DNA of 44,292 nucleotides, from the NCBI RefSeq assembly GCF_008016535.1, contig NZ_SAXY01000010.1, positions 1 to 44,292 on the forward strand, read 5' to 3'. A program made the position numbers and the translations under genes. Under the pieces are notes generated by a model. It saw only the letters and a list, made by a program, of their open reading frames with translations. It was not told the DNA's origin and did not search any database. Below are positions 2,626 to 25,919 of the stretch, piece by piece. Position 1 is the stretch's first letter; each line of letters opens with the position of its first letter. This DNA comes from Brachyspira pilosicoli. Lineage in GTDB: Bacteria; Spirochaetota; Brachyspiria; Brachyspirales; Brachyspiraceae.

Positions 2626-3645
2626 ATGTTTAGGCGAATATTAATTTTTGTTATTTTATTATTTATATCATCTTCTTTAATATTTACTCAAAATAAAAAA
2701 AGCACTATAGGGGTAGCTTTATATAGATTTGATGATAATTATATACAATATTTAAAAAACTATATAGAGAAAAATATTGGAAATAAAGCTTCTCTAACTA
2801 TAATAGATTCTCATAACAGTCAAATAACACAAAATGACCAAATAGATATATTTTTAAATAAAAATGTTAATCTTATAGCAATTAATTTAGTAAATGAAAA
2901 TTATGCTCAAACTATAATAAACAAAGTTAGCGTTAGAAATATACCTATTATTTTTTTTAATAGAGAGCCGTCTTTAGAAGTTCTTAATAGTTATAATAAT
3001 GTTTGGTATATTGGAGGCAGCAGCGAGAATGCAGGCAGAGCACAGGGCAGAGTTATAGCAGATAGTTGGAAGTCTCATTCTAATTGGGATAAAAATGAAG
3101 ACGGAAAGATTCAATGCGTAATAATAAGAGGAAGAACTAACAGTTTTGAGAGTGAGAATAGAACCCAATATATGAAAGATTATTTAAAAAATAATAATAT
3201 TAAACTTGATATATTAGCTGAAGTTTATGCTTTTGATAATAGAAAAACTGCTTCTATAGAAATGGATAAATTAATGACTAAATATTCTCAAAAAATAGAA
3301 TACATTATTGCTAATGATGATAATATGGCTTTAGGGGCATTAGACTCTATTAAAAAATTAGGATTTAATAGTGACAGCAGAATGCTTAATTATATACCAA
3401 TAGTAGGAATAGGCGGAACTCCTGAATATTTAGAAGCAATAAAAAACTATTCAGTATTTGCTACGGTAATGCAAAACCCATCTACACAGGCTGAAGTTTT
3501 GTCTAAAGTTTCATTAAATATAATAAATAATAAAGCTCCATTAGACGGCACAACTTTGAGTTTTGATAATAATAAATATATTTTTGTGCCTTATATACCT
3601 ATAACGATGTTTAATTTGGATAGGGCTATTGAAATTTATAAATAA
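2626..3645 (+). CDS. MglB-like sugar-binding protein with altered ligand site
   Basis: A 339-residue periplasmic binding protein of the galactose/glucose (MglB) type. An N-terminal signal peptide (residues 1 to about 22) has no lipobox Cys, so it is probably soluble, unlike its neighbour. The calcium-loop pattern D-K-N-E-D-G-K-I-Q (155-163) is kept. Compared by eye with E. coli MglB, the Tyr and Asp at the start and the F-F-N (112) are kept, but other sugar contacts differ: His152 is Ser173, Asp154 is Glu175, Trp183 is Phe203, Asn211 is Asp231, Asp236 is Gly263. Arg158 is kept (Arg179). It is first behind a strong promoter with the normal paralogue 27 bp downstream. No mglA or mglC follows. 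It may bind another ligand or serve sensing. Confidence 0.85.
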   Translation: MFRRILIFVILLFISSSLIFTQNKKSTIGVALYRFDDNYIQYLKNYIEKNIGNKASLTIIDSHNSQITQNDQIDIFLNKNVNLIAINLVNENYAQTIINKVSVRNIPIIFFNREPSLEVLNSYNNVWYIGGSSENAGRAQGRVIADSWKSHSNWDKNEDGKIQCVIIRGRTNSFESENRTQYMKDYLKNNNIKLDILAEVYAFDNRKTASIEMDKLMTKYSQKIEYIIANDDNMALGALDSIKKLGFNSDSRMLNYIPIVGIGGTPEYLEAIKNYSVFATVMQNPSTQAEVLSKVSLNIINNKAPLDGTTLSFDNNKYIFVPYIPITMFNLDRAIEIYK

Positions 3646-3672
3646 TATATTTATTAAAATAGGAGTAATTTT

Positions 3673-4707
3673 ATGAGCAAATTTATTTTTTCATTGCTAT
3701 TATTTTTATCTATTTTGTCTAGTTGTTCATCAAATAAGGTTAATGAGTCTAATGATAAGTCAATAGATGTTGCTGTGGCTATATATAGATATGATGATAG
3801 TTTTATTTCTTTTATGAGAAGGAACATAGAAAGCTTTTTAAAGACTGGTAATGTAAAGTTTACTATGACTGATGCAGATAATGATCAGGTTAAGCAGTAT
3901 GATCAAATAGATGCTGCCATACAGAGAAATGTTGATGCTATTGCTATTAATTTGGTTGATCCTTTAGCTGCTAATTTAGTTATAGAAAAAGCAAAACCTT
4001 CAAACATTCCTGTTATATTTTTTAATAAAGAGCCAAAAAAAGATGATTTATTGAGTTATGATAAGGTTTGGTATGTTGGCACTAGAAGTGTAGAGTCTGG
4101 AGATATGCAAGGAAATATAGTATTAAATGCTTGGCTTTCAAATGCTTCTTTGGATAAAAACAAAGATGGCAAATTGCAGTATGTTTTGCTTAAAGGTGAA
4201 GAGGGACACCCAGATGCTGAAGGAAGAACTGAGAGAGTTAAGGCTGTATTAGAAGAAAATGGAATTATATTAGAAGAGTTAGAGATGAATAATGCTAATT
4301 GGGATATACTTCAGGCACAAACTTTAATGGACGCTTGGATAAAAAAACATGAGAATAATATTGAGTTTATATTCTCTAATAATGATGCTATGGCTTTGGG
4401 AGCATTAAAATCCATACAAAAAGAGGGATATAATATAGGCGACAGCAATAAATTTATACCAATAGTAGGAGTTGATGCTATACCAGAAGTAATAGAAGAG
4501 ATAAAGAAAAATGCTATACTTGGTACAGTATTACAAAGTCCTAAAGATCAGGCTAAGGCTATAGTTGATATGGTTATGAATGTTGTAAACAATAAAGATG
4601 TACTTGATGGTACTGGTTATACTTTAGATGAAGTAAAAGCAGTGAGAGTGCCGTATAAGGCAATAACTATAGATAATGTTGATGATGCTATGGATGCTTA
4701 TAAGTAA
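3673..4707 (+). CDS. mglB: Galactose/glucose-binding lipoprotein, MglB type
   Basis: A 344-residue substrate-binding protein for D-galactose/D-glucose ABC uptake and possibly chemotaxis. The signal ends in I-L-S-S-C with the lipid Cys at 18. The sugar-site residues known from E. coli MglB are present: Y-R-Y-D-D near the start, F-F-N-K-E-P, G-H-P-D-A-E-G-R, N-W-D, S-N-N-D-A-M and V-G-V-D-A-I-P-E. The calcium loop D-K-N-K-D-G-K-L-Q is also intact. The one contact that differs is Asn256, here Gln. It follows the divergent paralogue by 27 bp with an AGGAG site and no promoter of its own, so the two are likely cotranscribed. The transporter ATPase and permease must be elsewhere. Confidence 0.93.
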   Translation: MSKFIFSLLLFLSILSSCSSNKVNESNDKSIDVAVAIYRYDDSFISFMRRNIESFLKTGNVKFTMTDADNDQVKQYDQIDAAIQRNVDAIAINLVDPLAANLVIEKAKPSNIPVIFFNKEPKKDDLLSYDKVWYVGTRSVESGDMQGNIVLNAWLSNASLDKNKDGKLQYVLLKGEEGHPDAEGRTERVKAVLEENGIILEELEMNNANWDILQAQTLMDAWIKKHENNIEFIFSNNDAMALGALKSIQKEGYNIGDSNKFIPIVGVDAIPEVIEEIKKNAILGTVLQSPKDQAKAIVDMVMNVVNNKDVLDGTGYTLDEVKAVRVPYKAITIDNVDDAMDAYK

Positions 4708-4736
4708 ATATTAAGTAAATATTGATAAGAATTTTT

Positions 4737-4770
4737 AAAGAGACTTCTTTTTAAAGAGGTCTCTTTTTTT
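4737..4770 (+). terminator. Intrinsic terminator after the mglB pair
   Basis: An 8-bp stem (4737-4744 with 4759-4766) is followed by a T run to 4770. It overlaps the last bases of the convergent lexA gene. The minus-strand reading lacks a clear T tract, so it mainly serves the plus strand. Confidence 0.8.
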
Positions 4771-5389
4771 ATATTTTTAGTCTTATTAATCCAACTACTT
4801 TGCCTACTATAGAAACTTTTTCTTGTATGATAGGAGGATATTCTTTATTTTCAGCAACCAATTTTATGCAGTCTTTTTCTTTAAAAAATCTTTTAATAGT
4901 TATTTCTTCATCACCATTATCATCTATTTTAGCTACTACAATGTCTCCATTTTGAGGCTCTATATTTGAAGGATTAACCAAAACCATATCACCTTCTTTT
5001 ATATGAGCATCTATCATAGAATTTCCTTTTACTTTCATAAGGAAATTGTTTTCATTTTGAGCTATAGATTCTGGCAATGGGAAAAAGTCTTCATAAGATT
5101 CATCAGAAACATCCATCAAAAGACCAGCCTTAACCTCATTTGTAAGCAAAGGTATTCTAATGAGATTATCTTTCTTTGAATCTATAGGCACGCTTCCTCT
5201 TGCTCTTTTGCCTGTTTTTTTTACATAACCTTTTTTTTCTAATGCTGTTAGATGTGTTGTTACGGCTGTTGGAGAGGCAAAATTAAAATGAACCATTATT
5301 TCTTTTACTGTTGGAGGGTATCCATTTTCATTCATGAACTTTTGCAAAAAATTTAATATATGCTTTTGCTTGTCTGTTAATTCTGTCAT
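4769..5389 (-). CDS. lexA: LexA repressor, SOS regulator
   Basis: Represses SOS DNA-damage genes and self-cleaves when RecA is activated. From the ATG at 5387-5389 the protein has 206 residues. A winged-helix DNA-binding domain fills residues 1-65. The cleavage site is A88-G89 (V-K-A-G), the catalytic serine is S124 (G-N-S-M) and the general-base lysine K166. A longer frame beginning with GTG at 5398 is possible, but the GAGG in the upstream DNA sits 8 nt before the ATG and overlaps the GTG, so I chose the ATG, which also matches the E. coli N-terminus. I could not identify a LexA operator by eye. A mobile element sits just upstream of its promoter. Confidence 0.97.
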   Translation of the reverse strand: MTELTDKQKHILNFLQKFMNENGYPPTVKEIMVHFNFASPTAVTTHLTALEKKGYVKKTGKRARGSVPIDSKKDNLIRIPLLTNEVKAGLLMDVSDESYEDFFPLPESIAQNENNFLMKVKGNSMIDAHIKEGDMVLVNPSNIEPQNGDIVVAKIDDNGDEEITIKRFFKEKDCIKLVAENKEYPPIIQEKVSIVGKVVGLIRLKI

Positions 5390-5425
5390 ATTAGACACCT
5401 CATATATATTATTATAATATTTATT

Positions 5426-5453
5426 ATTATACTATACAAAAATATGATGTCAA
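5426..5453 (-). promoter_or_regulatory. lexA promoter
   Basis: On the minus strand TTGACA (5453-5448), a 16-bp spacer and TATAAT (5431-5426) precede lexA. The left target-site duplication of the IS element begins at 5458, only 4 bp beyond this -35. Confidence 0.75.
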
Positions 5454-5457
5454 TATT

Positions 5458-5472
5458 TATAAATTAAAAATA
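5458..5472. repeat. Target-site duplication, left copy (15 bp)
   Basis: tataaattaaaaata directly abuts the left inverted repeat of the IS element and is repeated exactly at 6508-6522. Confidence 0.92.
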
Positions 5473-6507
5473 TGTTTAGGAGTATGAGATATTGGACATT
5501 TTTTAGTATAAAAAAAGCAGTATCCTTGTTATAATATTTTGATATAGAAAATAAATAAAGGATACTACTATGAAAAAAGATTATAGCACAGAATTTAAAT
5601 TATTTATAGTGGATGAAGCATTAGAAACTAAAAATATTAAAAGATTTTTAAAGATAGAAGAAATACCCAAATCTACTTTTTATGCTTGGCTTAAAAAATA
5701 TAAAGACACTGGAACTGTCGCCAATTTTAGCACTAGACCAAAAACTTCCCCAAATATCTTTAATAACCAAAAAGCTATTAATTTAATTATTAAACTCTAT
5801 ACTAAAGAATATCGAGGTAAGCATTATATTAAAGCATATTTAAATCGTAAAGGCATTAAGATAGGTGTTACAGCTATAGAGAATGTACTAAAAAGAAATA
5901 ATCTTTGGAGATATAAAACAAAAAAGAAAAAGAAGCGATATGATAAGCGTAAATTTGTCTCTAAAATACAAAAAGAAGGCAAAATAGTTCAAATAGACAC
6001 TAAATATATCAAATTAGGCAGAAAAACAGTCTATCAGTTCACTGCTGTAGATTTAGCTACTCGTTATAGTTGGAGAGAAATCTATGAAGATAAAACACCT
6101 TCTAGTGCTTTATCTTTCTTAAAATATGTCTTAAAAACTTCACCTTTTAAGATACAGGCTATACAAACGGACAATGGTATAGAATATACTTATCGCTGTA
6201 TTAATACTCCTAAAATAAATATTTTTGATGAATACTGCTTAAAAAATAAATTAGAGAGGAGATATATTCCTATAGCAACACCAAGATACAATGGCGTAGT
6301 AGAAAGAGTACAAGGCATAGACGAAAGAGAATTTTATTCACGATTAAATAAAAATATCACAGTAGAATTATTGAGAGAAAAATTAAAAGAATATACACAT
6401 TTTTATAACAATCAAAGATTGATTTCTTCGTTAGGTTATATTACAATCAAAGAAAGAATCAAAAATATTATAGCAAGTAAAAGTACAATATCTATGGCTC
6501 CATGACA
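5473..6507 (+). mobile_element. Complete IS481-like insertion sequence, 1035 bp
   Basis: Ends are set by terminal inverted repeats (5473-5494 and 6486-6507, about 15 of 22 matches, both starting tgt on their own strand and sharing ggag and agatattg blocks) and by perfect 15-bp direct repeats outside them. It carries a single transposase gene. The undecayed duplication and intact gene suggest a fairly recent insertion. It separates the promoters of lexA (minus) and ferritin (plus). A second copy's right end lies at 1-131. Family is judged from the single integrase-core transposase and the long duplication; I could not check it against an IS collection. Confidence 0.93.
5570..6505 (+). CDS. IS481-like DDE transposase
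   Basis: Cuts and joins the element's ends. At 311 residues it has an N-terminal helix-turn-helix (about residues 5-60, with the P-K-S-T-F-Y-A-W-L pattern), a second DNA-binding helical stretch rich in Lys (105-130) and an integrase core with candidate catalytic D143 (Q-I-D-T), D201 (Q-T-D-N-G) and E245 (V-V-E-R). The D-to-E gap of 43 is longer than the usual 35. The ending N-N-Q-R-L-I-S-S-L-G-Y is the standard integrase-core tail. The frame is intact and its stop lies almost at the element's end. Confidence 0.93.
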   Translation: MKKDYSTEFKLFIVDEALETKNIKRFLKIEEIPKSTFYAWLKKYKDTGTVANFSTRPKTSPNIFNNQKAINLIIKLYTKEYRGKHYIKAYLNRKGIKIGVTAIENVLKRNNLWRYKTKKKKKRYDKRKFVSKIQKEGKIVQIDTKYIKLGRKTVYQFTAVDLATRYSWREIYEDKTPSSALSFLKYVLKTSPFKIQAIQTDNGIEYTYRCINTPKINIFDEYCLKNKLERRYIPIATPRYNGVVERVQGIDEREFYSRLNKNITVELLREKLKEYTHFYNNQRLISSLGYITIKERIKNIIASKSTISMAP

Positions 6508-6522
6508 TATAAATTAAAAATA
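6508..6522. repeat. Target-site duplication, right copy (15 bp)
   Basis: Exact repeat of 5458-5472, starting directly after the right end of the element. Confidence 0.92.
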
Positions 6523-6530
6523 ACATTTTC

Positions 6531-6559
6531 TTGATATATTTGTTATAATATTATACAAT
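6531..6559 (+). promoter_or_regulatory. Ferritin promoter with overlapping 12-bp palindrome
   Basis: TTGATA (6531-6536), 17 bp, TACAAT (6554-6559). A perfect palindrome, tataatattata (6544-6555), covers the spacer and the start of the -10. It resembles the AT-rich half-sites of Fur/PerR operators but with no central base, so an operator role is only possible. Confidence 0.55.
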
Positions 6560-6585
6560 ATTTACATTATAATAGGAGTTATTTT

Positions 6586-7122
6586 ATGTCTATAATAAAA
6601 GAAGATATAATTAAATTATTAAATGAACAGTTAAATAAAGAGCTTTATTCTGCTAGTCTTTATTTCAATATGGCGGGCTGGTGCGATAAAGAGGGATTAA
6701 AAGGATGCAGCCAATTTTTATATGGTCATTTCAAGGAAGAAACAACTCACTTTGAAAAGTTTAGAGATTTTATTAATAAAGTTGGCGGACAGGCTATTAT
6801 TACAGAGATGAAAGCTCCTCAAAGTAACTTCAAATCTGTAGAGGATTTATTTAAAGCTATATTAAAACATGAGGAATATGTTACTTCTTGCATTAATGAA
6901 TTAGTTGGCAAAGCTATGGAAAGTAAAGACCATATTACTGCAAGGTTCTTAGATTGGTTTATACAAGAGCAGTTAGAAGAAGAAGAGCTATTTAATGAAA
7001 TACTTAGTAAAATAAAAATGCTTGGAAATGGAAAATTAGAAGGAAGGGACCTTTATACATTTGATGGTATTATGGCAGATTTTGATTCTAAAAAGCATTC
7101 TGCTTCTTCTGATGAACAATAA
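6586..7122 (+). CDS. ftnA: Bacterial non-haem ferritin
   Basis: Oxidises Fe(II) and stores iron in a 24-mer cytoplasmic shell. At 178 residues it is slightly longer than E. coli FtnA (165). The opening N-E-Q-L-N-K-E-L-Y-S-A-S is diagnostic. Ferroxidase ligands can be placed at E19, E52 and H55 (E-E-T-T-H), with the K-H-E-E and I-Q-E-Q-L-E-E-E-E motifs supplying the later Glu and Gln. About 15 extra residues, Asp/Ser/Lys-rich, follow the core. It has its own promoter and AGGAG; lptB starts 28 bp downstream without an obvious promoter. Confidence 0.96.
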   Translation: MSIIKEDIIKLLNEQLNKELYSASLYFNMAGWCDKEGLKGCSQFLYGHFKEETTHFEKFRDFINKVGGQAIITEMKAPQSNFKSVEDLFKAILKHEEYVTSCINELVGKAMESKDHITARFLDWFIQEQLEEEELFNEILSKIKMLGNGKLEGRDLYTFDGIMADFDSKKHSASSDEQ

Positions 7123-7150
7123 TAAATAATAATAATTAAAGAGAGGGTAT

Positions 7151-7978
7151 ATGTTTCATAAGTTTTTAAATATTTTTAAAAAGAAAGATAAGGATATACC
7201 CTCTGCAAATAGAGTTACTGCAGAGAATTTTTTTAATTATGATAAAGAAAATCCTTCAGAGATAAGGGCTGTAAGTTTAACTAAATTTTACGGTAAGAGA
7301 AAAATAATAGAAGATATTTCTTACAGTGTAAAGCAGGGTGAGGTAGTTGGACTTTTAGGACCTAATGGGGCAGGGAAGACAACAAGTTTTTATATCACGG
7401 TTGGTTTTGTTACGGCTACTAAAGGAAATATTTATTTAAATGATATAGATATTACTAATCTTCATATGTATCAGCGTGCTCAGCTTGGAATAGGTTATTT
7501 ACCGCAAGAGGCTTCTATTTTTAGAAAACTTTCTGTTGAGGACAATTTACTTTCTATACTTGAATATAATGATGCTTTAACTCAAAAAGACAGAATGGAT
7601 ATTACAGATAGATTATTAGAAGAGTTTAATATCACGCATGTAAGAAAACAAAGAGGCTATACACTTTCAGGTGGTGAGAGGAGAAGATGTGAGATAGCAA
7701 GAGCATTAACTGTAAACCCTAAATTTATTTTATTGGATGAACCATTTGCAGGAGTTGACCCTATAGCAGTTATTGATATACAAAATATCATAGCCTCATT
7801 AAAAGAAAAAGGGCTTGGAATATTAATAACCGACCACAATGTACGCGAAACTTTGAGAATTACAGATAGAGCATATATAATGGGTAATGGTAAAATATTA
7901 GTTCAAGGAAGCCCTGAAGAGATTATAGCAAATCCTTTGGCACGTAAGATTTACTTAGGTGAATCTTTCAGTATGTGA
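7151..7978 (+). CDS. lptB: LPS export ABC transporter ATPase LptB
   Basis: ATPase that powers extraction of LPS/LOS from the inner membrane with LptFG. Of 275 residues the first 37 form a charged extension (K-K-K-D-K-D) not present in E. coli LptB (241). Then follow Walker A G-P-N-G-A-G-K-T-T (70-78), the Q-loop Q119, signature L-S-G-G-E (172-176), Walker B I-L-L-D-E-P (193-198) and the H-loop T-D-H-N-V-R-E-T. The L-S-G-G-E-R-R-R sequence and the D-H-N-V-R-E-T motif are specific to LptB. Its presence shows a diderm with lipopolysaccharide or lipooligosaccharide. It follows ferritin closely. Confidence 0.94.
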   Translation: MFHKFLNIFKKKDKDIPSANRVTAENFFNYDKENPSEIRAVSLTKFYGKRKIIEDISYSVKQGEVVGLLGPNGAGKTTSFYITVGFVTATKGNIYLNDIDITNLHMYQRAQLGIGYLPQEASIFRKLSVEDNLLSILEYNDALTQKDRMDITDRLLEEFNITHVRKQRGYTLSGGERRRCEIARALTVNPKFILLDEPFAGVDPIAVIDIQNIIASLKEKGLGILITDHNVRETLRITDRAYIMGNGKILVQGSPEEIIANPLARKIYLGESFSM

Positions 7979-7985
7979 TAATTAT

Positions 7986-8022
7986 AAATAGTGGATAAAA
8001 TATTATCCACTATTTAATTATA
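7986..8022. terminator. Bidirectional terminator between lptB and the symporter
   Basis: A perfect 12-bp stem (7986-7997 with 8004-8015) with a 6-nt loop is flanked by AT-rich sequence on both sides. It sits between two convergent genes. Confidence 0.75.
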
Positions 8023-8031
8023 TTTTTACTA

Positions 8032-9249
8032 TTATTCCATTTGTTTAATATATTTATCCTCAGAACGAGAAACAATTATTGTACCTACTAAATCTCCTAA
8101 ACAATTCATCATAGTATATCCCATATCTATAAGAGCAAATATTCCAGAAACTATACCAACAACTTCTAATGGTAAATTAAAAGCATCTATTACTATTGCT
8201 ATAGTTACTATTCCGCCTCCTGGTACACCACCTGCTCCTGTAGTTAATATTAGAGATATTATTATAACTTTTATCAATATTCCTAAAGATAGAGGTGAGT
8301 TAATAGCCTGTGCGGCAAAAAGAAAAGTGATTGCCAACATCATTCCATTTCCATCTTTATTTACTTGAGATCCTAATGGAATTGTAAAGCTTGATATAGA
8401 TCTGCTGCATTTTAATTCATCAGCACAAGACATACTTACAGGTATGCATGCTAAACTTGAACTAGTACCCAAAGCAGTTATTATTAAAACAGATGCTTGC
8501 TTAAAAAATGTTATTGGATTAACTTTTGCAAATATCATCAATAAAATTAAATATACTAATAAATGTAATATTATAGCTGAATAACTAGCACCTAAATATT
8601 TTGCAATAAAGCCTAACAAATTGCTTCCATAAGTACCTATTGTAGATGCTATTAAAGCACAAATTCCTATAGGAGCATATAACATTATTCCAGCAATTAT
8701 TTTATTAAAAAGCTTTGCTAAAGAGTTGAATAAAGTTGTTAGAGTTTTTTTATCATCTTTTTCTAAGAATAATATAGCTATTCCAACTATAGCACTAAAA
8801 ACTACTATTTGGTCAAATCTAGCATTTGTTAATGCTTCAAATATATTTGATGGTAATAATCCTACTATAGTTTCTCCAAAAGAAGGTATTGTCTGTATAG
8901 CTGTTTCATATTTTTCTTTAAAAGTAAAACCAATACCAGGTTTAAATATATATCCTGATATTAATCCTATTATAATAGCTATAAATGTAGTGAAAAAATA
9001 GTAAATCATTATTTTTAATCCAACTCTTCCAAATATTTTTGGGTCATCTAATGAAGATATACCAGATATAAGATTTACTATAACCAAAGGTAATGCTGCC
9101 ATTTTTAATATATTTAAAAATATAGTTCCTAATGGTTTTATAATTAATATTTTTTCTTTAAATACAATTCCCAATATTACACCAATAAGCATAGATACAA
9201 GTAATTTATTTAATAAAGGTATTTTTTTATAATAAGAAAATATATTCAT
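8032..9249 (-). CDS. DAACS-family (GltP-like) cation/amino-acid symporter
   Basis: Inner-membrane secondary transporter with about 8 membrane helices and two re-entrant loops, 405 residues. I start it at the ATG 9247-9249 because GGAG lies 6 nt before it; an in-frame TTG at 9261 overlaps that site. Family landmarks: the Ser-rich T-S-S-S-L loop (262-266), N-K-D-G-N-G (297-302), G-G-V-P-G-G-G (340-346) and I-D-M-G-Y-T-M-M-N (374-382). By alignment with archaeal GltPh, D394, T398 and N401 are kept, but R397 is Tyr378 and T314 is Asn301, the two residues that hold the acidic side chain. Met311 is Lys298. A neutral or otherwise non-acidic substrate is therefore likely. It ends the ridA cassette, 43-55 bp after the PLP-enzyme gene. 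Confidence 0.92.
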   Translation of the reverse strand: MNIFSYYKKIPLLNKLLVSMLIGVILGIVFKEKILIIKPLGTIFLNILKMAALPLVIVNLISGISSLDDPKIFGRVGLKIMIYYFFTTFIAIIIGLISGYIFKPGIGFTFKEKYETAIQTIPSFGETIVGLLPSNIFEALTNARFDQIVVFSAIVGIAILFLEKDDKKTLTTLFNSLAKLFNKIIAGIMLYAPIGICALIASTIGTYGSNLLGFIAKYLGASYSAIILHLLVYLILLMIFAKVNPITFFKQASVLIITALGTSSSLACIPVSMSCADELKCSRSISSFTIPLGSQVNKDGNGMMLAITFLFAAQAINSPLSLGILIKVIIISLILTTGAGGVPGGGIVTIAIVIDAFNLPLEVVGIVSGIFALIDMGYTMMNCLGDLVGTIIVSRSEDKYIKQME

Positions 9250-9304
9250 TGTTTTCTCCAAAATTATTTAATAAATAAAAGATTATTTTGATTTTTGATA
9301 ATTA

Positions 9305-10468
9305 TTATAGATTAGATATTTCATATATTGCTTTAGCAACTATGTCCATATCCTCTTCTGTATTATAGAAGTTTATTCCTAATCTAATATAGCCTGCTCT
9401 TATGGTACAGTATATCTTATATTTGGATAATATATCTTTTACTTCTTTTTCTCTATTATTTGGATAATATATACATACTATACCACCCCAATTTTTTTCA
9501 TCACTAGCTTGAACTATAGTTAGCGGTACATCTTTTATTGATTCTCTAAGTCTCTTTTCTAATTTTCTTATATGTTTTTCAATTTCATCTATACCTAATT
9601 CTAATATTAAATCTATTCCTTGAGATATAGCTAAAATACAATTATAACTTAAATTTCCAGATTCAAATCTTCTAGCATGTGGATACCATTCTATATATTC
9701 AAAATTACTAGTTATTGCAGGAGGCACTACATGATTTATAGTACTTTGATATCCAGCATATGGCGGTATTATATCTTTTACTATATTATCATCACAATAT
9801 ACAAATCCTGCCCCTAAAGTTCCTAATAACCCCTTATTAGTTCCACATGCTAAATAATTAATATTCATACTTTGAACATCTATTTTCATTCTGCCTAATG
9901 CTTGTATTCCATCCACTGCAAAAATAATTCCTCTCTTTTTACATTCCTCTCCTAAAAAATATAAATCTGAGAAAAAACCTGTAGAAAATTGAATAGATGA
10001 TACTACTAATATTTTTGTATTTTCATCTATGGATTCAACCATCTTTTTATAATCAACCTCATTATTTTTATTTTTTATTACTTTTAGTACAATTCCTTTC
10101 TGTTGATGCATATTTATCCATGGAAATAACGTAGATTGATGTTCCTGATCAGCAATTATAATATTATCACCTTTTTTTAATGGATATCCATTGGCAAGTA
10201 TTGACATGCCTTCACAAGTGTTCTTTACAAATCCTATTTCATGAGAATGTTTGGCATTAATTAATTTAGATACTTTTTCTCTAGTACTATTGACAATTTC
10301 CCATGACTTTGATACAACATCAATACCAAAATTTTTTACGTAATATTCCATAAAATGATTATATGCCTCTTGAACTCTTTTGGGCGGCATCCCAACAGAG
10401 GAGACATTAAGGAATATTACGTCTTTTAAAAAAGAAAATTCTTCTTCAATGAGTCTTTTATTTAGCAT
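9305..10468 (-). CDS. Class V aminotransferase-fold PLP enzyme
   Basis: A 387-residue PLP-dependent enzyme of the cysteine desulfurase/isopenicillin-N-epimerase superfamily. The PLP-binding Lys is K212 (G-T-N-K-G), with D186 in V-D-G-I-Q-A-L-G pairing with the pyridine nitrogen and H110 in D-Q-E-H-Q-S stacking on the ring. The conserved late R-F-E-S-G-N is present. There is no obvious catalytic Cys loop of a sulfur donor, so an Fe-S scaffold role is unlikely. Reactions in this branch include transamination, lyase and epimerase chemistry. It lies 11 bp after the regulator gene, with AGGAGG-like DNA before the start. The partner RidA suggests that it yields enamine/imine intermediates. Confidence 0.88.
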   Translation of the reverse strand: MLNKRLIEEEFSFLKDVIFLNVSSVGMPPKRVQEAYNHFMEYYVKNFGIDVVSKSWEIVNSTREKVSKLINAKHSHEIGFVKNTCEGMSILANGYPLKKGDNIIIADQEHQSTLFPWINMHQQKGIVLKVIKNKNNEVDYKKMVESIDENTKILVVSSIQFSTGFFSDLYFLGEECKKRGIIFAVDGIQALGRMKIDVQSMNINYLACGTNKGLLGTLGAGFVYCDDNIVKDIIPPYAGYQSTINHVVPPAITSNFEYIEWYPHARRFESGNLSYNCILAISQGIDLILELGIDEIEKHIRKLEKRLRESIKDVPLTIVQASDEKNWGGIVCIYYPNNREKEVKDILSKYKIYCTIRAGYIRLGINFYNTEEDMDIVAKAIYEISNL

Positions 10469-10479
10469 TTTTTCCTCCT

Positions 10480-11118
10480 TTATTGATCTATTTTATTAAT
10501 ATAATTATAAACACTATATTTACTAATATCATAATATTTTGCTATGATATTGCTGGCATTTTTTATCCTCATAGCACCTCTCTTATTTAAATATTGAATT
10601 CCTTTAATCTTTTCATTTCTAGTCATATTTGCTACTGGAACTCCTATATAATTAATTGATTCTTGTATTAAATTAATCAACAAGTCCTCAGTATTTGTAA
10701 TTATTGTATCTATTTTTTCATTATTTATTTCTTTAGACATACAAATCTTTTCTAATATTTTACTAGTAGTCAATAATTCAGTTATATCTAAATTTACACA
10801 TAAACTTCCTATCACCTCACCTTTATCATTTTTTAAATAAATGGTGCTGCTTCTAAGAAAATGACCATCTAATGTTTGTGTTATGTAGTTAAATTTACCA
10901 TTTGGTTCTTCTGATGTCTGTAATACTTTTAACCCTATATTCGTACCGCCCATTCCTACTTTTCTATTTGTTACTTCTCCATTTACTATAGCGACTATTG
11001 TAGAATCAAAATATTCTGAATAATCATGTATAACAAATTCGCACCTCTCTCCAAATTGTTTTCCTAAACCAGTAATTATATCTTCTAATAATGGTAATAT
11101 ATCTTTTATAGTTTTCAT
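10480..11118 (-). CDS. YheO/DauR-type PAS-HTH transcriptional regulator
   Basis: A 212-residue regulator. Residues 1 to about 120 match the YheO-like PAS domain (L-G-K-Q-F-G-E-R-C-E-F-V-I-H-D-Y at the start, then I-G-S-L-C-V-N-L-D-I). Residues 170-210 form the C-terminal HTH of this family: L-N-K-R-G-A...I-A-K-Y-Y-D-I-S-K-Y-S-V-Y-N-Y-I. The best-known member, DauR of Pseudomonas, controls D-arginine catabolism. It lies between ridA (22 bp upstream) and the PLP enzyme, so it probably controls this operon. Likely binding sites are the 20-bp repeats at 11593-11632. Confidence 0.88.
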   Translation of the reverse strand: MKTIKDILPLLEDIITGLGKQFGERCEFVIHDYSEYFDSTIVAIVNGEVTNRKVGMGGTNIGLKVLQTSEEPNGKFNYITQTLDGHFLRSSTIYLKNDKGEVIGSLCVNLDITELLTTSKILEKICMSKEINNEKIDTIITNTEDLLINLIQESINYIGVPVANMTRNEKIKGIQYLNKRGAMRIKNASNIIAKYYDISKYSVYNYINKIDQ

Positions 11119-11140
11119 AATTTATATCTGTATTATATTA

Positions 11141-11527
11141 TTATTTTTTGTCTCTTAATGCCATAACTTCTATTTCAACTAATATGTTCCTCAAATTTAC
11201 TCCAATAGTAGTTCTAGTTGGAAATGGCTTTGGAAACAAAGAACTATATATTTCATTCATATCATTAAAATATTTTATATCTGATAGATAAACATTGCTT
11301 TTTACAACATTTTCTAAAGAACTGCCCGCTTCTTCTAATATTGACTTTATGTTCTCTATACATTGTTTTGTTTGAAGCTTTATATCATTTGGTATTTCTT
11401 TTGTTATTGGGTTTTCTGGCCTCTGACCAGCTACAAATACGAAATCTCCAGCTAGTATACATTGAGAGTATGGACCAGCAGGTTGAGGACTATTGTCTGT
11501 ATGTATTTCTATTTTCTTTTTTGTCAT
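11141..11527 (-). CDS. RidA family enamine/imine deaminase
   Basis: Hydrolyses reactive enamine/imine intermediates released by PLP enzymes, preventing damage such as by 2-aminoacrylate. The 128-residue length is exact for the family. R105 (P-T-R-T-T) and E120 (V-E-I-E-V) fall on the same numbers as the active-site Arg and Glu of E. coli RidA. The P-A-G-P-Y-S-Q start and G-Q-R-P-E-N-P loop are normal; position 107 is Thr, not Cys. First gene of the cassette, with GGAG before the ATG and a strong promoter. Confidence 0.93.
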   Translation of the reverse strand: MTKKKIEIHTDNSPQPAGPYSQCILAGDFVFVAGQRPENPITKEIPNDIKLQTKQCIENIKSILEEAGSSLENVVKSNVYLSDIKYFNDMNEIYSSLFPKPFPTRTTIGVNLRNILVEIEVMALRDKK

Positions 11528-11560
11528 AGAATTACTCCTTTAATAATTTTTATATATAAT

Positions 11561-11589
11561 AATATAGTTTTTTTTATTTTTATTGTCAA
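11561..11589 (-). promoter_or_regulatory. Promoter of the ridA cassette
   Basis: On the minus strand TTGACA (11589-11584), a 17-bp spacer and TATATT (11566-11561) precede ridA by about 34 bp. Two 20-bp direct repeats lie just upstream. Confidence 0.75.
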
Positions 11590-11592
11590 TAA

Positions 11593-11632
11593 ATTTCAAC
11601 AAATTTTTTAATATTTCAACAAAATTTTTAAT
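11593..11632. promoter_or_regulatory. Tandem 20-bp direct repeats beside the ridA -35, likely operator
   Basis: Two abutting copies, 11593-11612 and 11613-11632, match at 19 of 20 positions. Each reads atttcaacaaa then an AT run to taat. The near copy ends 3 bp from the -35. A 20-bp period is about two helical turns, so two proteins would bind on one face. The position suits an activator. The adjacent PAS-HTH gene is the obvious candidate. Confidence 0.6.
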
Positions 11633-11857
11633 AAAAAACCTAGCTGCTTACATAATTTAAATATATACAGGCAATTTATTGTATTAGACAATAGAAAATA
11701 TATGAAACATACCGTTAGAATTTATTAAAATACGATAATAGATTTAGCCATAGTGGAATATAGGCATAGTAAGAAGATATTAGTTTTTGTAAAAAAAAAT
11801 TATAAATTATATATAAATAATTTAGTTAAATAACATATTATTTATTATATTTTTATT

Positions 11858-12664
11858 TTATCCTAAAGCAACATCTAAAACCATCATTATAGCAAAGCCG
11901 AATATAAAGCCAAATACTCCGAAGTGATTATGTTCTTCTGCAACAGCTTCTGGAATTAATTCTTCTATAACAACATATATCATAGCACCTGCAGAAAATG
12001 ATAATGCTATAGGTAGTATTAATGTAAGTTTAGTAACGGCAATAGCACCTATCACTGCAGCAATAGGCTCCACTATTCCAGATATTGCTCCAAGTAAAAA
12101 AGATTTTGATTTTGAAACACCTGTGCTTTTAAGAGGCAGAGAAACGGCAGCACCTTCTGGGAAGTTTTGAAGACCTATACCAAGTGCTAAAGCCAAAGCC
12201 GCATTAAAACTCACCCCGCTATCTCCTATAGAAAAAGCTCCAAATGTTACACCAACTGCTAAACCCTCTGGTATATTGTGTAATGTAATAGCTAAAAATA
12301 ATAGTATACTTTTTGATAGTTTTACTTTAGCTCCTTCAATTTCTTCATGTCCATTCACTATATGCATATGCGGTAATGATTTATCTAATACCCATATAAA
12401 AAATGCACCAAATAAAAAACCGCCAACAGGTATAAGCCAATTTGGTAAATTAGTGTTTTCTGATAGCTCTATAGATGGAGCAAGTAAAGACCAAAAACTA
12501 GCAGCTGTCATTACACCACCTGCAAAACCATACATAGTAGCAAGTAGTTTAGGTTTTATTTCAGATACAAAGAAAAATACTAATCCTGCTCCAAGTGCTG
12601 TAAAAGCAAATGTAATTCCTCCTCCAAATAATGCTAAAACAACTGGTGATGCATTCTCTATCAT
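11858..12664 (-). CDS. ZIP family metal transporter
   Basis: Inner-membrane uptake of zinc or related divalent metals. The 268-residue protein has about 8 helices. The metal-site helices carry H-N-I-P-E-G (129-134) and N-F-P-E-G (167-171), the signature of the ZupT/GufA-like branch, here with Asn in place of the second site's His. A short His-bearing cytoplasmic loop (H-M-H-I-V-N-G-H, 99-106) could sense metal. Promoter at 12703-12731 with a palindrome just upstream. Substrate cannot be fixed from sequence. Confidence 0.92.
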   Translation of the reverse strand: MIENASPVVLALFGGGITFAFTALGAGLVFFFVSEIKPKLLATMYGFAGGVMTAASFWSLLAPSIELSENTNLPNWLIPVGGFLFGAFFIWVLDKSLPHMHIVNGHEEIEGAKVKLSKSILLFLAITLHNIPEGLAVGVTFGAFSIGDSGVSFNAALALALGIGLQNFPEGAAVSLPLKSTGVSKSKSFLLGAISGIVEPIAAVIGAIAVTKLTLILPIALSFSAGAMIYVVIEELIPEAVAEEHNHFGVFGFIFGFAIMMVLDVALG

Positions 12665-12702
12665 TAATTACCGCCTTTTATTTTTTTTGTTTTTATTTTA
12701 TA

Positions 12703-12731
12703 ATTATATATATTATTAAATTAATTTTCAA
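12703..12731 (-). promoter_or_regulatory. ZIP transporter promoter
   Basis: On the minus strand TTGAAA (12731-12726), 17 bp, TATAAT (12708-12703), about 40 bp before the start. Confidence 0.65.
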
Positions 12732-12743
12732 TACTAATTAGTA
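12732..12743. promoter_or_regulatory. 12-bp palindrome abutting the ZIP -35
   Basis: tactaattagta is perfectly self-complementary and begins directly upstream of the ZIP -35. A looser 18-bp inverted repeat follows at 12744-12761, close to the HIT gene's Shine-Dalgarno. Operator function for a metal regulator is possible but AT-rich palindromes arise easily by chance. Confidence 0.3.
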
Positions 12744-12775
12744 ATAGTTATTAATAATTATAGGAGTTTTATATT

Positions 12776-13105
12776 ATGAGTAATGATTGCATATTTTGTA
12801 AGATTATTAAAGGAGAAATACCTTCAAACTTTATAAAAGAAAATGAATATTGTGTTGTATTTAAAGATTTAAATCCTAAATCTGATGTTCATTTGCTTGT
12901 TGTACCAAAGAAGCATTTAAAAGACATAACAGAAATAGATAATGATTTGATGGGTAAGGTATTAGATACTATTAAAGAGGTTGCTAAAGAAAATAATTTA
13001 GAATCTTTTAGAATAGTTAATAATTGCGGAGAGAATGCAGGGCAAAGCGTATTTCATTTGCATTTTCATGTTTTGTCTGGAGCTAATTTAAAAGACAATT
13101 TTTAA
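12776..13105 (+). CDS. HIT family purine nucleotide hydrolase (HinT-like)
   Basis: A 109-residue histidine-triad protein that hydrolyses nucleoside phosphoramidates and related adducts in the cytoplasm. The triad H-L-H-F-H-V (94-99) is complete. C5 and C8 (C-I-F-C) together with a later His form the usual zinc site. AGGAG precedes the ATG. The tatD gene starts 19 bp downstream, so the two are likely cotranscribed. Confidence 0.95.
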   Translation: MSNDCIFCKIIKGEIPSNFIKENEYCVVFKDLNPKSDVHLLVVPKKHLKDITEIDNDLMGKVLDTIKEVAKENNLESFRIVNNCGENAGQSVFHLHFHVLSGANLKDNF

Positions 13106-13124
13106 AAATTAATTAGGAGTTATT

Positions 13125-13943
13125 ATGATAGACAGTCATTGCCATCTTACTTATATATCTAAAAAAGCCAAAGATTTGAAAGAGGTTTTGGAGAGAGCAA
13201 ATAAGGCTGGTGTATATTATTTTGTAGATATAGGAGTTCATCCTAGCGATATAGACGAGCGTTTATATATATTATCTGATGCTGAAGGTGTATTTTTTAG
13301 TATGGGTTATTATCCAGACTATGCCAATGAAAATGATGAACATACAATTAAGGCTTTTGAATTAAAAATAAAAACTATAAACAAAAAAACTTTAGAAAAC
13401 AGAAAAAAATTAATTTATGCTGTTGGAGAGATAGGGTTAGATTATTATCATGATGATTCTAACAAAGAGGAACAAAAGAAATTTTTTAGTGCTTTATGCA
13501 ATGCTGCAAAAAATGTTGATCTTCCAATACTTATTCACAGCAGAGATGCTTTTAGAGATACTTTTAGTATACTTAAAGAGGCTGATATACCAAAAAGGGG
13601 AATATTTCATTGTTTCAGCGGAAATGTGGAAGATGCTAAGAATGCTTTAGATTTGGGATATATACTTTCTTTTTCTGGTTCTTGTACATATTTAAAAAAT
13701 GATTTTTTAAGAGAAGCAGCTAAATATGTTCCTAAAGATATGTTTACAATAGAGACTGATTCTCCATATTTAACACCTCAGAAGATGAGAGGAAGAGCTA
13801 ATGAACCTAGCTTTATACCATATACCGCAGAAGTTTTGGCAGAGGCTAGGGGAGAGAGCGTTTCTGATATTATGGAAAATGCTTTAATTAATGCTTCGAG
13901 GGTTTTAGAGCTTCCTATTGACACTAATAAATTTACAAATTAA
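13125..13943 (+). CDS. TatD family metal-dependent hydrolase
   Basis: A 272-residue TIM-barrel DNase-like hydrolase. Metal-binding motifs in order: S-H-C-H (4-7), G-E-I-G-L-D-Y-Y (about 105-112), H-S-R-D-A-F (His in barrel), F-H-C-F-S-G and E-T-D-S-P-Y-L near residue 205. It probably acts as a 3'-5' exonuclease or D-Tyr-tRNA/peptide hydrolase as proposed for relatives. AGGAG site; in operon with the HIT gene. Confidence 0.95.
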   Translation: MIDSHCHLTYISKKAKDLKEVLERANKAGVYYFVDIGVHPSDIDERLYILSDAEGVFFSMGYYPDYANENDEHTIKAFELKIKTINKKTLENRKKLIYAVGEIGLDYYHDDSNKEEQKKFFSALCNAAKNVDLPILIHSRDAFRDTFSILKEADIPKRGIFHCFSGNVEDAKNALDLGYILSFSGSCTYLKNDFLREAAKYVPKDMFTIETDSPYLTPQKMRGRANEPSFIPYTAEVLAEARGESVSDIMENALINASRVLELPIDTNKFTN

Positions 13944-14014
13944 CATAACTATTTTTGTTTAAGCAAATTATATATATTACGATAATAACTCTTAAGGAAG
14001 ACAATTAAAAAAAC

Positions 14015-14677
14015 ATGAGAAAATACTTTACTTTTATAACTTTACTTTTTTTATTATCTTTTTTTAATTTACTTCATTCTCAGGATATTTCTTTTGAAGA
14101 ACTTTATAACAAAATAAAAGATAATTATACAACTATATATCCAAAACGTTTCGAGGCATATATAGAAGGCAAAATAGTAGAAGCTCAAATATCAACTATA
14201 CCTGCAAAAAATTATTTATCTTCAAAAGACAAAATCAGATTAAAGTTCACTCTCGTACAAAACTCTAAACCAAACATTGTGCTTGAAAATGTTGATAGTT
14301 TTTATGCTAAGATGTTTTCTGTGTTTGAAGAGCCTTTGGAGACAGTTGGGTTTTATGCTATTGTATCTGAGAGTTATAGTTCTCTTTCAAAGAAGTTTAC
14401 TGTTGATTCTGTAAAAGAAGATAATGATAAATATGAAGTTGTATTAAGGGCTGTTGGTGAAAATAAAGACTATAGTATAAACTACACAATAAATAAAAAT
14501 AGTCTTTTGGTAGAAAGTGCCGATTATTATAATAAAAAATCAAAGATTTATGATGTTGATATATCATACACCAATATTGATAATTATACTGTTCCTGAGA
14601 TTATTAAATATAAAAGTTCTGATGGCAGAGTAAACTCTCAAATAAAGTTTGTTGATATAAAAGTGTCTTCCAAATAA
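14015..14677 (+). CDS. Exported protein of unknown function
   Basis: 220 residues with a clear signal peptide (about 1-22, ending L-L-H-S-Q) and no lipobox Cys, so probably periplasmic. The mature part is rich in beta-type alternation and Tyr/Lys, with a pattern vaguely like lipid- or lipoprotein-carrier folds (LolA-like), but I do not recognise a motif. AAGGA is about 15 nt from the ATG, an unusually long gap. The next gene, also exported, starts 21 bp downstream and is likely in the same unit. Confidence 0.75.
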   Translation: MRKYFTFITLLFLLSFFNLLHSQDISFEELYNKIKDNYTTIYPKRFEAYIEGKIVEAQISTIPAKNYLSSKDKIRLKFTLVQNSKPNIVLENVDSFYAKMFSVFEEPLETVGFYAIVSESYSSLSKKFTVDSVKEDNDKYEVVLRAVGENKDYSINYTINKNSLLVESADYYNKKSKIYDVDISYTNIDNYTVPEIIKYKSSDGRVNSQIKFVDIKVSSK

Positions 14678-24134: not shown

Positions 24135-25919
24135 ATGAATAAAAAAAATAATAAAAAATATAAAAATAGAGAAGAGGCTTTTAGAGATTATTTTGAAAGC
24201 GTAAGTAAAATTGTATATACATTAAACTTAATATCTGACAGAAATGATATGACAAGAAGACTTTCTAATAATATAAATAGGGTATTGGGTTATGATGATG
24301 AGACAATTATTAATGATGAGAAAGTTGCAAATAATAATAATGATGAGATAGCCATATTAATAGATTCTATAAAAAAAGATTTAAAAAAGATACATACATT
24401 TAAACAATATAATTTTAATATAGAGAGATTTATAGATGAGTTTGAATTAAATGATGATGAAAGATTTATTTTATATTGTTTAATTACTTATACAATTTAT
24501 GGGGACTCTATGTCTGCCATATCTGTAAGAAGGATATTAGAACTCATCACAATGGATGCAGATATTTATATTAACAAGTATCATTATTTTGACAGCAGCA
24601 GCAAATTAATGTCAAGCGGCATACTTGTTTTATCTCATGAACCTTATTCAAGTATTGGACTTTTAGAGGTGTCTAATACTTTGATTACATTTGTTAATTC
24701 AAAGATAGTTTTTGCTTTTTTAGAGAAAGAAAGCTATGATTTAATATTAGATATTACAAACAAAGAAAATTATATAGATACAAAATCTAAAAAGAAGATT
24801 ATAAAAGAGCCAAGAATATTAACACCAAAAGAGATAGTTTCTGAACTTAACAAAACAGTAATAGGTCAAGATGATGCTAAGAAAGCATTGTCTGTACATG
24901 CTTATTTACATTGTTTAAGAATTAATGGCAATAAAGATATACCATTTAGGTCAAATATTCTTATGATAGGACCTACTGGAGTTGGTAAAACATATTTGGT
25001 AAAAACATTAGCAGATATTTTAGGGCTTCCATTTGCACGTGCTGATGTTACTACGCTTACAGAGACGGGTTATGTAGGAGATGATGTTGAGGTTGTATTA
25101 TATAATCTTTATAAGAAGGCTAATGGTGATTTAGATAAAGCACAAAATGGTATAGTATTTTTAGATGAGGTAGACAAGATAGCAAAAGCCGATGCTCATC
25201 AATCTACTACAGGCAACCCATCAGACAAGGCTGTTCAAGAGGCTTTGCTTTCTATGATGAATGGTGAGGATATTAGAGTACCTGAGTTTGGCGATAGAAG
25301 AATGATGCATTCAAGTGATGGTATTATAATGAACACTAAAAATATTTTATTTATTTTCGGCGGTGCTTTTGTAGGGCTTGAAGATATTATAAAGATGCGT
25401 CTTAAAGGGGAGAGTAGTTTAGGCTTTGGTTCTAATGCGGTTGTAAATAAACTTCAGAAAAATAAAATACTCAGTCAGGTAGATGTGAAAGATGTAGAGA
25501 AATATGGTATGATACCAGAGTTTATAGGAAGAATACCGATAATTGTAACTTTAAATGAACTTACTAAAGATAATTTAAAAGATATATTGCTAAAAACTAA
25601 AGAATCACCTATAATAAAATATGTAGATTTCTTTAAGAGCATAGGAAAGAAGCTAATATTAACTGACGATGCTATAAATTATATAGTCGATAAGGCTTCT
25701 ACTATGAATATGGGGGCAAGATCTTTAAAAAGTATAGTTGAAACTGCAATGGTTAATATACTTTTTAATTTAGATGGTATAAAGGGAAATGCTTTAACTC
25801 TAACTAAAAATGATATAGAGAAAGCATTTGAAGAGAGGGAGGTAGTGATTTCAAGCGATAAAGATTTTATTAAAAAGAATAATATAAGTCCAAAAGAAGA
25901 TAAAACTTATATGGCTTGA
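24135..25919 (+). CDS. ClpX-like AAA+ ATPase without zinc-binding domain
   Basis: 594 residues. The C-terminal 360 follow ClpX: Walker A G-P-T-G-V-G-K-T (279-286), pore loop G-Y-V-G (312-315), Walker B V-F-L-D-E (341-345), a ClpP-docking-like L-G-F (429-431), arginine finger in E-F-I-G-R (R466) and the M-G-A-R-S-L-K sensor 2. The N-terminal 230 residues replace the usual C4 zinc domain with a helical region I do not recognise. The ClpX R-K-H loop aligns with G-D-R-R-M-M (386-391), so substrate choice probably differs. Cotranscription with rimO (34 bp) and the sigma gene (60 bp) is likely. Confidence 0.88.
   Translation: MNKKNNKKYKNREEAFRDYFESVSKIVYTLNLISDRNDMTRRLSNNINRVLGYDDETIINDEKVANNNNDEIAILIDSIKKDLKKIHTFKQYNFNIERFIDEFELNDDERFILYCLITYTIYGDSMSAISVRRILELITMDADIYINKYHYFDSSSKLMSSGILVLSHEPYSSIGLLEVSNTLITFVNSKIVFAFLEKESYDLILDITNKENYIDTKSKKKIIKEPRILTPKEIVSELNKTVIGQDDAKKALSVHAYLHCLRINGNKDIPFRSNILMIGPTGVGKTYLVKTLADILGLPFARADVTTLTETGYVGDDVEVVLYNLYKKANGDLDKAQNGIVFLDEVDKIAKADAHQSTTGNPSDKAVQEALLSMMNGEDIRVPEFGDRRMMHSSDGIIMNTKNILFIFGGAFVGLEDIIKMRLKGESSLGFGSNAVVNKLQKNKILSQVDVKDVEKYGMIPEFIGRIPIIVTLNELTKDNLKDILLKTKESPIIKYVDFFKSIGKKLILTDDAINYIVDKASTMNMGARSLKSIVETAMVNILFNLDGIKGNALTLTKNDIEKAFEEREVVISSDKDFIKKNNISPKEDKTYMA

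Follow-up and report, generated by a model that had tools for sequence, protein, structure and literature searches.

A stretch of 44,292 nucleotides (nt) from Brachyspira pilosicoli (contig NZ_SAXY01000010.1; hereafter the window) was analysed, and four closely spaced genes on its minus strand were found to encode a RidA protein, a YheO-type regulator, a class V pyridoxal 5'-phosphate (PLP) enzyme and an SDF-fold symporter. On balance, these genes are probably best understood as a mobile catabolic cassette that takes up a small neutral amino acid and degrades it by alpha,beta-elimination. According to this scheme, the symporter would import the amino acid, which may be serine- or cysteine-like or a beta-substituted relative, and the PLP enzyme would remove its beta- (or alpha-) substituent, yielding a reactive enamine (2-aminoacrylate or similar). 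RidA would then hydrolyse this enamine, or the imine, to a 2-oxo acid and ammonium, shielding the other PLP enzymes of the cell, while the regulator, a YheO-type protein with PAS and helix-turn-helix (HTH) domains, would control the operon through an operator of tandem direct repeats located at the -35 box. What is new here is the class V plus SDF version of a recurring bacterial kit, with a tandem repeat at -35; the cassette is not a new kind of system.

Gene content and organization of the locus

The four open reading frames (ORFs) are flanked by a ZIP transporter gene (11858-12664) and by a gene for an LptB-like ATP-binding cassette (ABC) protein (7151-7978), and the Pfam matches of all four products are well over cut-off:

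11141..11527, minus strand: RidA, 128 aa (Pfam Ribonuc_L-PSP 1.9e-32; TIGR00004; Arg105)
10480..11118, minus strand: YheO/CfiR-type regulator, 212 aa (PAS_6 1.3e-32, HTH_22 8e-17)
9305..10468, minus strand: class V fold-type-I PLP enzyme, 387 aa (Pfam Aminotran_5 1.3e-53)
8032..9249, minus strand (ORF to TTG 9261): SDF (glutamate-transporter-fold) symporter (Pfam SDF 6e-104, 348 bits)

The intergenic gaps are of 22 nt between ridA and the regulator gene, 11 nt between the latter and the PLP enzyme gene, and 43-55 nt in front of the symporter gene, whose start is probably ATG 9249 rather than TTG 9261, because the homologous protein of B. alvinipulli begins there. A first-pass annotation of this DNA had described four close, same-strand genes read from one promoter and combining uptake, PLP chemistry, enamine removal and regulation. 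The arrangement and the gene content are borne out by the gaps of 11-55 nt and by the Pfam match of each gene. As for the promoter, one plausible candidate lies just upstream of ridA, and the four genes would thus be carried on a single transcript.

Predicted promoter and operator

Two regulatory elements were identified upstream of ridA:

11589 to 11561, minus strand: predicted sigma-70-like promoter, TTGACA-17-TATATT, 11 of 12 matches, with -35 and -10 kept in B. alvinipulli
11593..11632, minus strand: predicted operator, two tandem 20-bp direct repeats with core TTTGTTGAAAT, touching the -35 box

The promoter is accompanied by an AGGAG site and is the sole clear candidate upstream of ridA. 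Over the region as a whole, promoter-like matches occur at chance frequency (56 against 57.1 expected); hence, the support for this promoter comes from its position and from its conservation in B. alvinipulli. The core TTTGTTGAAAT is found twice on the coding strand, the copies being 20 bp apart, and the end of the tandem repeat coincides exactly with position 11632, where the first-pass annotation had set the right end of the cassette. The quality of the pair was matched in none of 300 dinucleotide shuffles of the region, and the 2.76-Mb genome contains no second occurrence of the pattern. In B. alvinipulli, the same arrangement is present at the same place, with both copies reading TTTGTGTAAAT. 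Such a concerted change of both copies, with spacing and place kept, is the behaviour expected of a binding site, and the predicted operator may well be bound by the cassette's own regulator. Activation would be in keeping with a site placed just upstream of the -35 box, although repression is the role of the Campylobacter homolog.

The class V PLP enzyme

According to a motif alignment of 40 relatives and its invariant columns, the PLP- and carboxylate-site residues (the predicted Schiff-base Lys212, Asp186, Gln189 and Arg362) are kept, and His110 occupies the predicted stacking position. The C-terminal catalytic-cysteine loop of the desulfurases is deleted, while a SufS-type control row in the same alignment retains RAGHHCA. 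The first-pass annotation would have been refuted by a cysteine desulfurase serving iron-sulfur (Fe-S) cluster assembly. Such an assignment could be taken from the best general models, which are the SufS and EF2568-type families, and from the best PDB matches, which are called cysteine desulfurase. However, the scores remain far under the curated cut-offs (161.9 against 475.1 bits and 158.9 against 377 bits), and all NCBIfam desulfurase equivalog cut-offs are widely missed. Moreover, other class V proteins are encoded in the genome, and 24 of 26 Brachyspira species do without this PLP enzyme. A desulfurase is ruled out by the missing loop and the missed cut-offs, and we give this reading almost no credence.

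Most relatives share the C-terminal form without the cysteine loop; hence, the enzyme is one of a large group within class V that has been little described. Class V proteins that lack this loop and carry the motif R-x-S-P-H-F-Y-N-T include epimerases. The enzyme could thus be a racemase or epimerase of the isopenicillin-N-epimerase type, inverting an imported D- (or L-) amino acid while RidA clears side products. Related enzymes of Rhizobiales adjoin aspartate ammonia-lyase, as would be expected of an epimerase feeding a stereospecific lyase, and an alanine-racemase-fold PLP protein occupies the same slot on an Escherichia coli plasmid, although this protein is actually nearer to hydroxy-aspartate aldolase. 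Among the features of isopenicillin-N-epimerase-like enzymes, the general C-terminal motif is the one that fits, the libraries used containing no dedicated model or close characterised homolog. Against this reading, none of the genes in the cassette encodes a downstream enzyme able to consume the inverted product, and RidA is found for the most part with lyases and oxidases, whose reactions liberate enamines or imines (PMC4433059). Epimerization is therefore rather unlikely in our judgement.

This version is the nearest to the link with D-amino-acid catabolism proposed in the first-pass annotation, which derived solely from the name DauR and for which no specific support was obtained. The cassette contains no FAD-dependent (flavin adenine dinucleotide) D-amino-acid dehydrogenase, and nothing in it fixes the stereochemistry of the substrate. 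The D-amino-acid loci of Pseudomonas, dauBAR and dguRABC, combine a regulator with imine chemistry, dgu including a Rid protein, and their catabolic enzyme is an FAD dehydrogenase. No such dehydrogenase is encoded between 8032 and 11632, unlike in loci of this type.

Alternatively, a class V aminotransferase could salvage nitrogen from a neutral amino acid, with RidA guarding the transaminase. An aminotransferase-like PLP enzyme is indeed present in a Yersinia pestis analogue of the cassette (PMC7221256), and weak NCBIfam matches to class V aminotransferases were obtained. However, the PhnW, BhcA and pyridoxamine-pyruvate transaminase models reach 32-41 bits against cut-offs of 360-650 bits and cover about 100-165 residues. 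Furthermore, transamination releases no enamine that would require RidA, which leaves this possibility improbable. A structural model of the PLP enzyme, predicted with an alignment of 4 rows, had a mean predicted local distance difference test score (pLDDT) of 49 and was too poor to be used.

The SDF symporter

In alignments, the symporter keeps the equivalents of GltPh Asp394, which contacts the amino group, Asn401, which contacts the main-chain carboxylate, and Asp405. At the position of GltPh Arg397, which contacts the side-chain carboxylate of aspartate, a Tyr is found instead, as in B. alvinipulli. The Arg397 residue determines acidic over neutral specificity (PMC12668577), and the GltPh R397C mutant loses aspartate transport while carrying serine, alanine and cysteine (PMC5750217). 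By analogy with this mutant, the substitution by Tyr makes a neutral amino acid the likely substrate. An acidic-amino-acid carrier was rejected, as neither Arg397 nor the NMDGT motif is kept and the GltP equivalog cut-off is missed (177 against 638 bits); the SstT equivalog cut-off is missed as well (132.4 against 308 bits). In both Brachyspira proteins, NMDGT is replaced by NKDGN (window 8500-9250; B. alvinipulli locus L075, 8860-10080). The resulting Lys at the Met311 position, beside the ion sites, could alter ion coupling and makes sodium coupling uncertain.

RidA and the YheO-type regulator

RidA scores as an archetypal member of its family (TIGR00004, 123 bits against a cut-off of 106.25), and Arg105 is kept in an alignment to solved Rid structures (2dyy and 1xrg chains), which is consistent with a 2-iminopropanoate/enamine deaminase. 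The regulator matches PAS_6 with 112.5 bits (cut-off 27) and HTH_22 with 61.4 bits (cut-off 29.6); no solved homolog of it was detected by sequence. It is one of only two HTH_22 proteins in the genome.

The other YheO-type regulator of the genome is encoded at 9150-9872 of locus L094 (G000:C43:19001-38000), in a cluster spanning 5340-14412. It adjoins genes for a diaminopropionate ammonia-lyase (DpaL; above the equivalog cut-off), a YgeY-like M20 hydrolase and a YgeW-like carbamoyltransferase, and faces SsnA- and YgfK-like genes, as part of an anaerobic purine/urate-type cluster in B. pilosicoli. In Collinsella and Enterococcus, the same urate-type cluster also comes with a YheO gene.

Distribution and mobility of the cassette

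Among 26 Brachyspira species, an ortholog of the PLP enzyme was found in two, the B. pilosicoli source strain and B. alvinipulli (82% identity), the latter having the same four genes in the same order. The gene order thus extends beyond the source strain, on which the first-pass annotation had made its proposal depend, albeit narrowly, to this one further species. In the three closest relatives, whose ZIP is 99% identical, the ZIP and LptB genes are direct neighbours without the cassette:

7981..11857: segment that the closest relatives lack at the corresponding site (homology to them ends at about 7980-7990 and is regained at about 11854-11858)

In these relatives, the ZIP-LptB spacer consists of 0.6-0.8 kb of other sequence that differs from one relative to another (L105 2305-2928, L106 767-1500, L107 2305-3138) and, in place of the cassette, holds recurring G+C-richer stretches resembling dispersed repeats.

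In B. alvinipulli, ZIP and LptB are likewise direct neighbours, with about 15 nt between them, and the cassette resides at another locus, where it adjoins genes for a short-chain dehydrogenase and an alpha/beta-hydrolase. The block common to the window and to B. alvinipulli (8053-11636) comprises only the four genes and the repeats. The cassette has moved as a unit, as it occupies different sites in the two species, is absent from the closest relatives and shares nothing but genes and repeats between its two copies. No flanking transposase, terminal repeat or tRNA accounts for this movement. An IS481/IS3-like transposase gene (rve domain) is located at window positions 5570-6505, between lexA and a ferritin gene and about 1.5 kb from the cassette edge.

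Between the two copies, dN/dS ranges from 0.06 to 0.11 for all four genes, close to the values of the neighbouring core genes (0.10 for ZIP and 0.07 for LptB), indicating that all four are maintained under purifying selection. Divergence of the cassette between the two species (80-81% nt identity) equals that of core genes; hence, a recent transfer between exactly these two species is unlikely. The G+C content of the cassette is 25-30%, against 31-35% for its neighbours and a window mean of 28%, and is too near to this mean to prove a foreign origin. Homologs were sampled from Spirochaetota, one clostridial phylum and plasmid records, with Fusobacteriota and most other phyla outside the sample. 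Apart from B. alvinipulli, no relative of the PLP enzyme above 33% identity, and thus no donor, was found in these about 800 clostridial-phylum genomes, 296 Spirochaetota genomes and plasmids. In the 286-nt gap between the regulator and PLP enzyme genes of B. alvinipulli (L075, about 11377-11545), a sequence resembling the 5' part of the PLP enzyme gene was noticed, apparently the remnant of a partial duplication.

Recurrence of YheO and Rid proteins in other genomes

Among 391 clostridial genomes drawn, 51 encoded PAS_6 proteins, and 57 YheO loci were searched for RidA within 6 kb. RidA was present within this distance at 36 of these loci, compared with 1 of 20 windows taken as controls in the same genome set (Fisher p = 3e-6), a linkage already known from comparative work in Campylobacter (PMC4519771). 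Beyond the YheO-RidA pair, the following kits were picked by hand and illustrate the arrangement without estimating its frequency. In clostridial genomes, YheO occurs with a Rid-type protein, an SSF symporter, an M20 protein and a class V PLP enzyme (G352, locus L059), and as a fragment with RidA and a class V PLP enzyme (G1026, locus L090). On the Rhodococcus plasmid pLRE138, permease genes adjoin a set of YheO, M20, class V PLP enzyme and Rid, and the E. coli plasmid carries YheO, a BhcC-like PLP enzyme, M20, RidA and an MFS protein. In Paenibacillus, YheO accompanies the carbon-sulfur (C-S) lyase PatB, NhaC and RidA, and in Priestia, RidA and a threonine-synthase-like enzyme. A further clostridial locus (G327, locus L210) encodes SdaAB and SdaAA (L-serine dehydratase), an SDF carrier of the SstT branch and YheO, and at locus L172, YheO lies near tryptophanase/TPL-like and CyuA-like genes, named by sequence inspection only. 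What the kit enzymes have in common is their product, an enamine such as 2-aminoacrylate, and not their fold. The nearest analogues by context are loci of the L-serine dehydratase, cysteine/C-S lyase, tryptophanase and diaminopropionate ammonia-lyase types.

Several observations weigh against a catabolic cassette based on elimination. Most clostridial loci are plain YheO-RidA pairs, a PLP enzyme of the tested families being present at 6 of the 57, and the linkage of YheO and RidA alone is no proof of a catabolic role. The nearest relatives of the PLP enzyme outside Brachyspira are at most 33% identical and none was found characterised, its family also includes epimerases and aminotransferases, and a tree of 40 class V proteins does not tell whether the YheO-linked enzymes form one clade. 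The Tyr of the symporter differs from the Cys mutant that was tested and NMDGT has become NKDGN, meaning that ion coupling and substrate may be unusual. Finally, the operator core TTTGTNNAAA was not enriched in 58 YheO upstream regions (4 occurrences against 2.45 expected); hence, the core is local to the Brachyspira lineage and not family-wide.

The prevalence of pairs lacking the other two genes would also fit a stress module that stands on its own, like CfiR-CfiP, with the PLP enzyme and symporter genes as chance neighbours, and CfiR does repress ridA in Campylobacter (PMC4519771). However, the four genes lie on one strand with gaps as short as 11 and 55 nt around the PLP enzyme gene, and the same functional slots recur elsewhere. 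Moreover, the four-gene order is kept at a different locus in B. alvinipulli, which implies that the four genes moved together, and chance neighbourhood is quite improbable. A catabolic cassette remains our preferred reading. More tentatively, the class V enzyme might represent a previously undescribed family of amino-acid lyases, and YheO regulators might be sensors of enamine-forming amino-acid catabolism, heading swappable kits of non-homologous parts (an enamine-forming enzyme, a Rid protein and a carrier), here at the tandem 20-bp repeat; this extension is possible but clearly doubtful.

A second recurring cluster was observed in Clostridia and Spirochaetota, in which related class V PLP enzymes accompany an Asp/Glu/hydantoin-racemase-like gene, RidA and NhaC-like carriers (L058 of G319, 3496-13077; L060 of G208, 5104-10500; L068 of G244, 9025-11136). 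The G319 locus adds a dihydropyrimidinase-like gene and three class V paralogs, and the PLP enzymes of this cluster form a supported group in the class V tree. On Agrobacterium and Mesorhizobium plasmids (L100 6830-12861 and L101 6917-9638), related class V PLP enzymes are encoded beside annotated aspartate ammonia-lyase genes governed by an IclR regulator, and in Methylobacterium (L102), such an enzyme lies beside an SDF symporter. A racemase-plus-lyase pathway, or another pathway for aspartate derivatives, is possible at these Rhizobiales and Methylobacterium loci.

Comparison with known systems

The first-pass annotation knew of no characterised operon with this gene set, and a literature search by name for the exact set returned nothing relevant. 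However, the same four roles, with other PLP and carrier families, are found in the Y. pestis operon y3555-y3554-y3553-y355x-y3551-y3550, the nearest characterised case, which was horizontally acquired. In this operon, a PLP enzyme and a Na+-coupled carrier are combined with a PAS-HTH regulator and with an active RidA, for which deamination of 2-aminoacrylate has been proven (PMC7221256). All four functional slots are present here in one co-directional cluster, the PLP enzyme and the carrier being non-homologous. Indeed, the Y. pestis operon has an aspC-like aminotransferase instead of a class V enzyme and NhaC instead of SDF, together with a second Rid protein, y3553 and another gene order (PMC7221256).

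In Campylobacter jejuni, cfiR-cfiP (Cj1387c-Cj1388) similarly places a YheO-like PAS_6-HTH regulator beside a proven RidA, with dcuC adjoining, but this pair lacks a PLP enzyme, its regulator represses and its phenotype was read as flagellar (PMC4519771; PMC6742949). The clostridial SdaAB-SdaAA-SDF-YheO locus (L210, G327:C15) resembles the cassette in combining, on one strand, YheO, an SDF-fold carrier and an aminoacrylate-forming deaminase. It differs in its Fe-S L-serine dehydratase, its SstT-branch carrier and the absence of RidA within 6 kb. More generally, a survey of 981 genomes found RidA to cluster with 2-aminoacrylate-forming PLP enzymes (PMC4433059). These clusters place RidA beside a PLP enzyme as here, and the text of that survey names no YheO, class V non-desulfurase or SDF carrier.

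Other features of the window

7985..8016: hairpin with a 14-bp stem, a possible terminator between the convergent ends of the ABC and symporter genes, with poly-T on the plus side only
24135-25919: ClpX-like protein (594 aa) with a long N-terminal extension, its similarity to ClpX starting only at about residue 200

Significance

For the signal sensed by the widespread YheO (PAS_6-HTH_22) regulators, the cassette provides a concrete and testable case, in which the operator is predicted and the range of possible substrates is limited. If its regulator responds to the amino acid or to the enamine product, a function would be gained for a large uncharacterised family of regulators, and the class V enzyme would bring a new reaction to a family whose members are usually annotated as "cysteine desulfurase-like". 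For the organisms themselves, the cassette shows that gut spirochaetes acquire cassettes for amino-acid catabolism and shift them to other sites.

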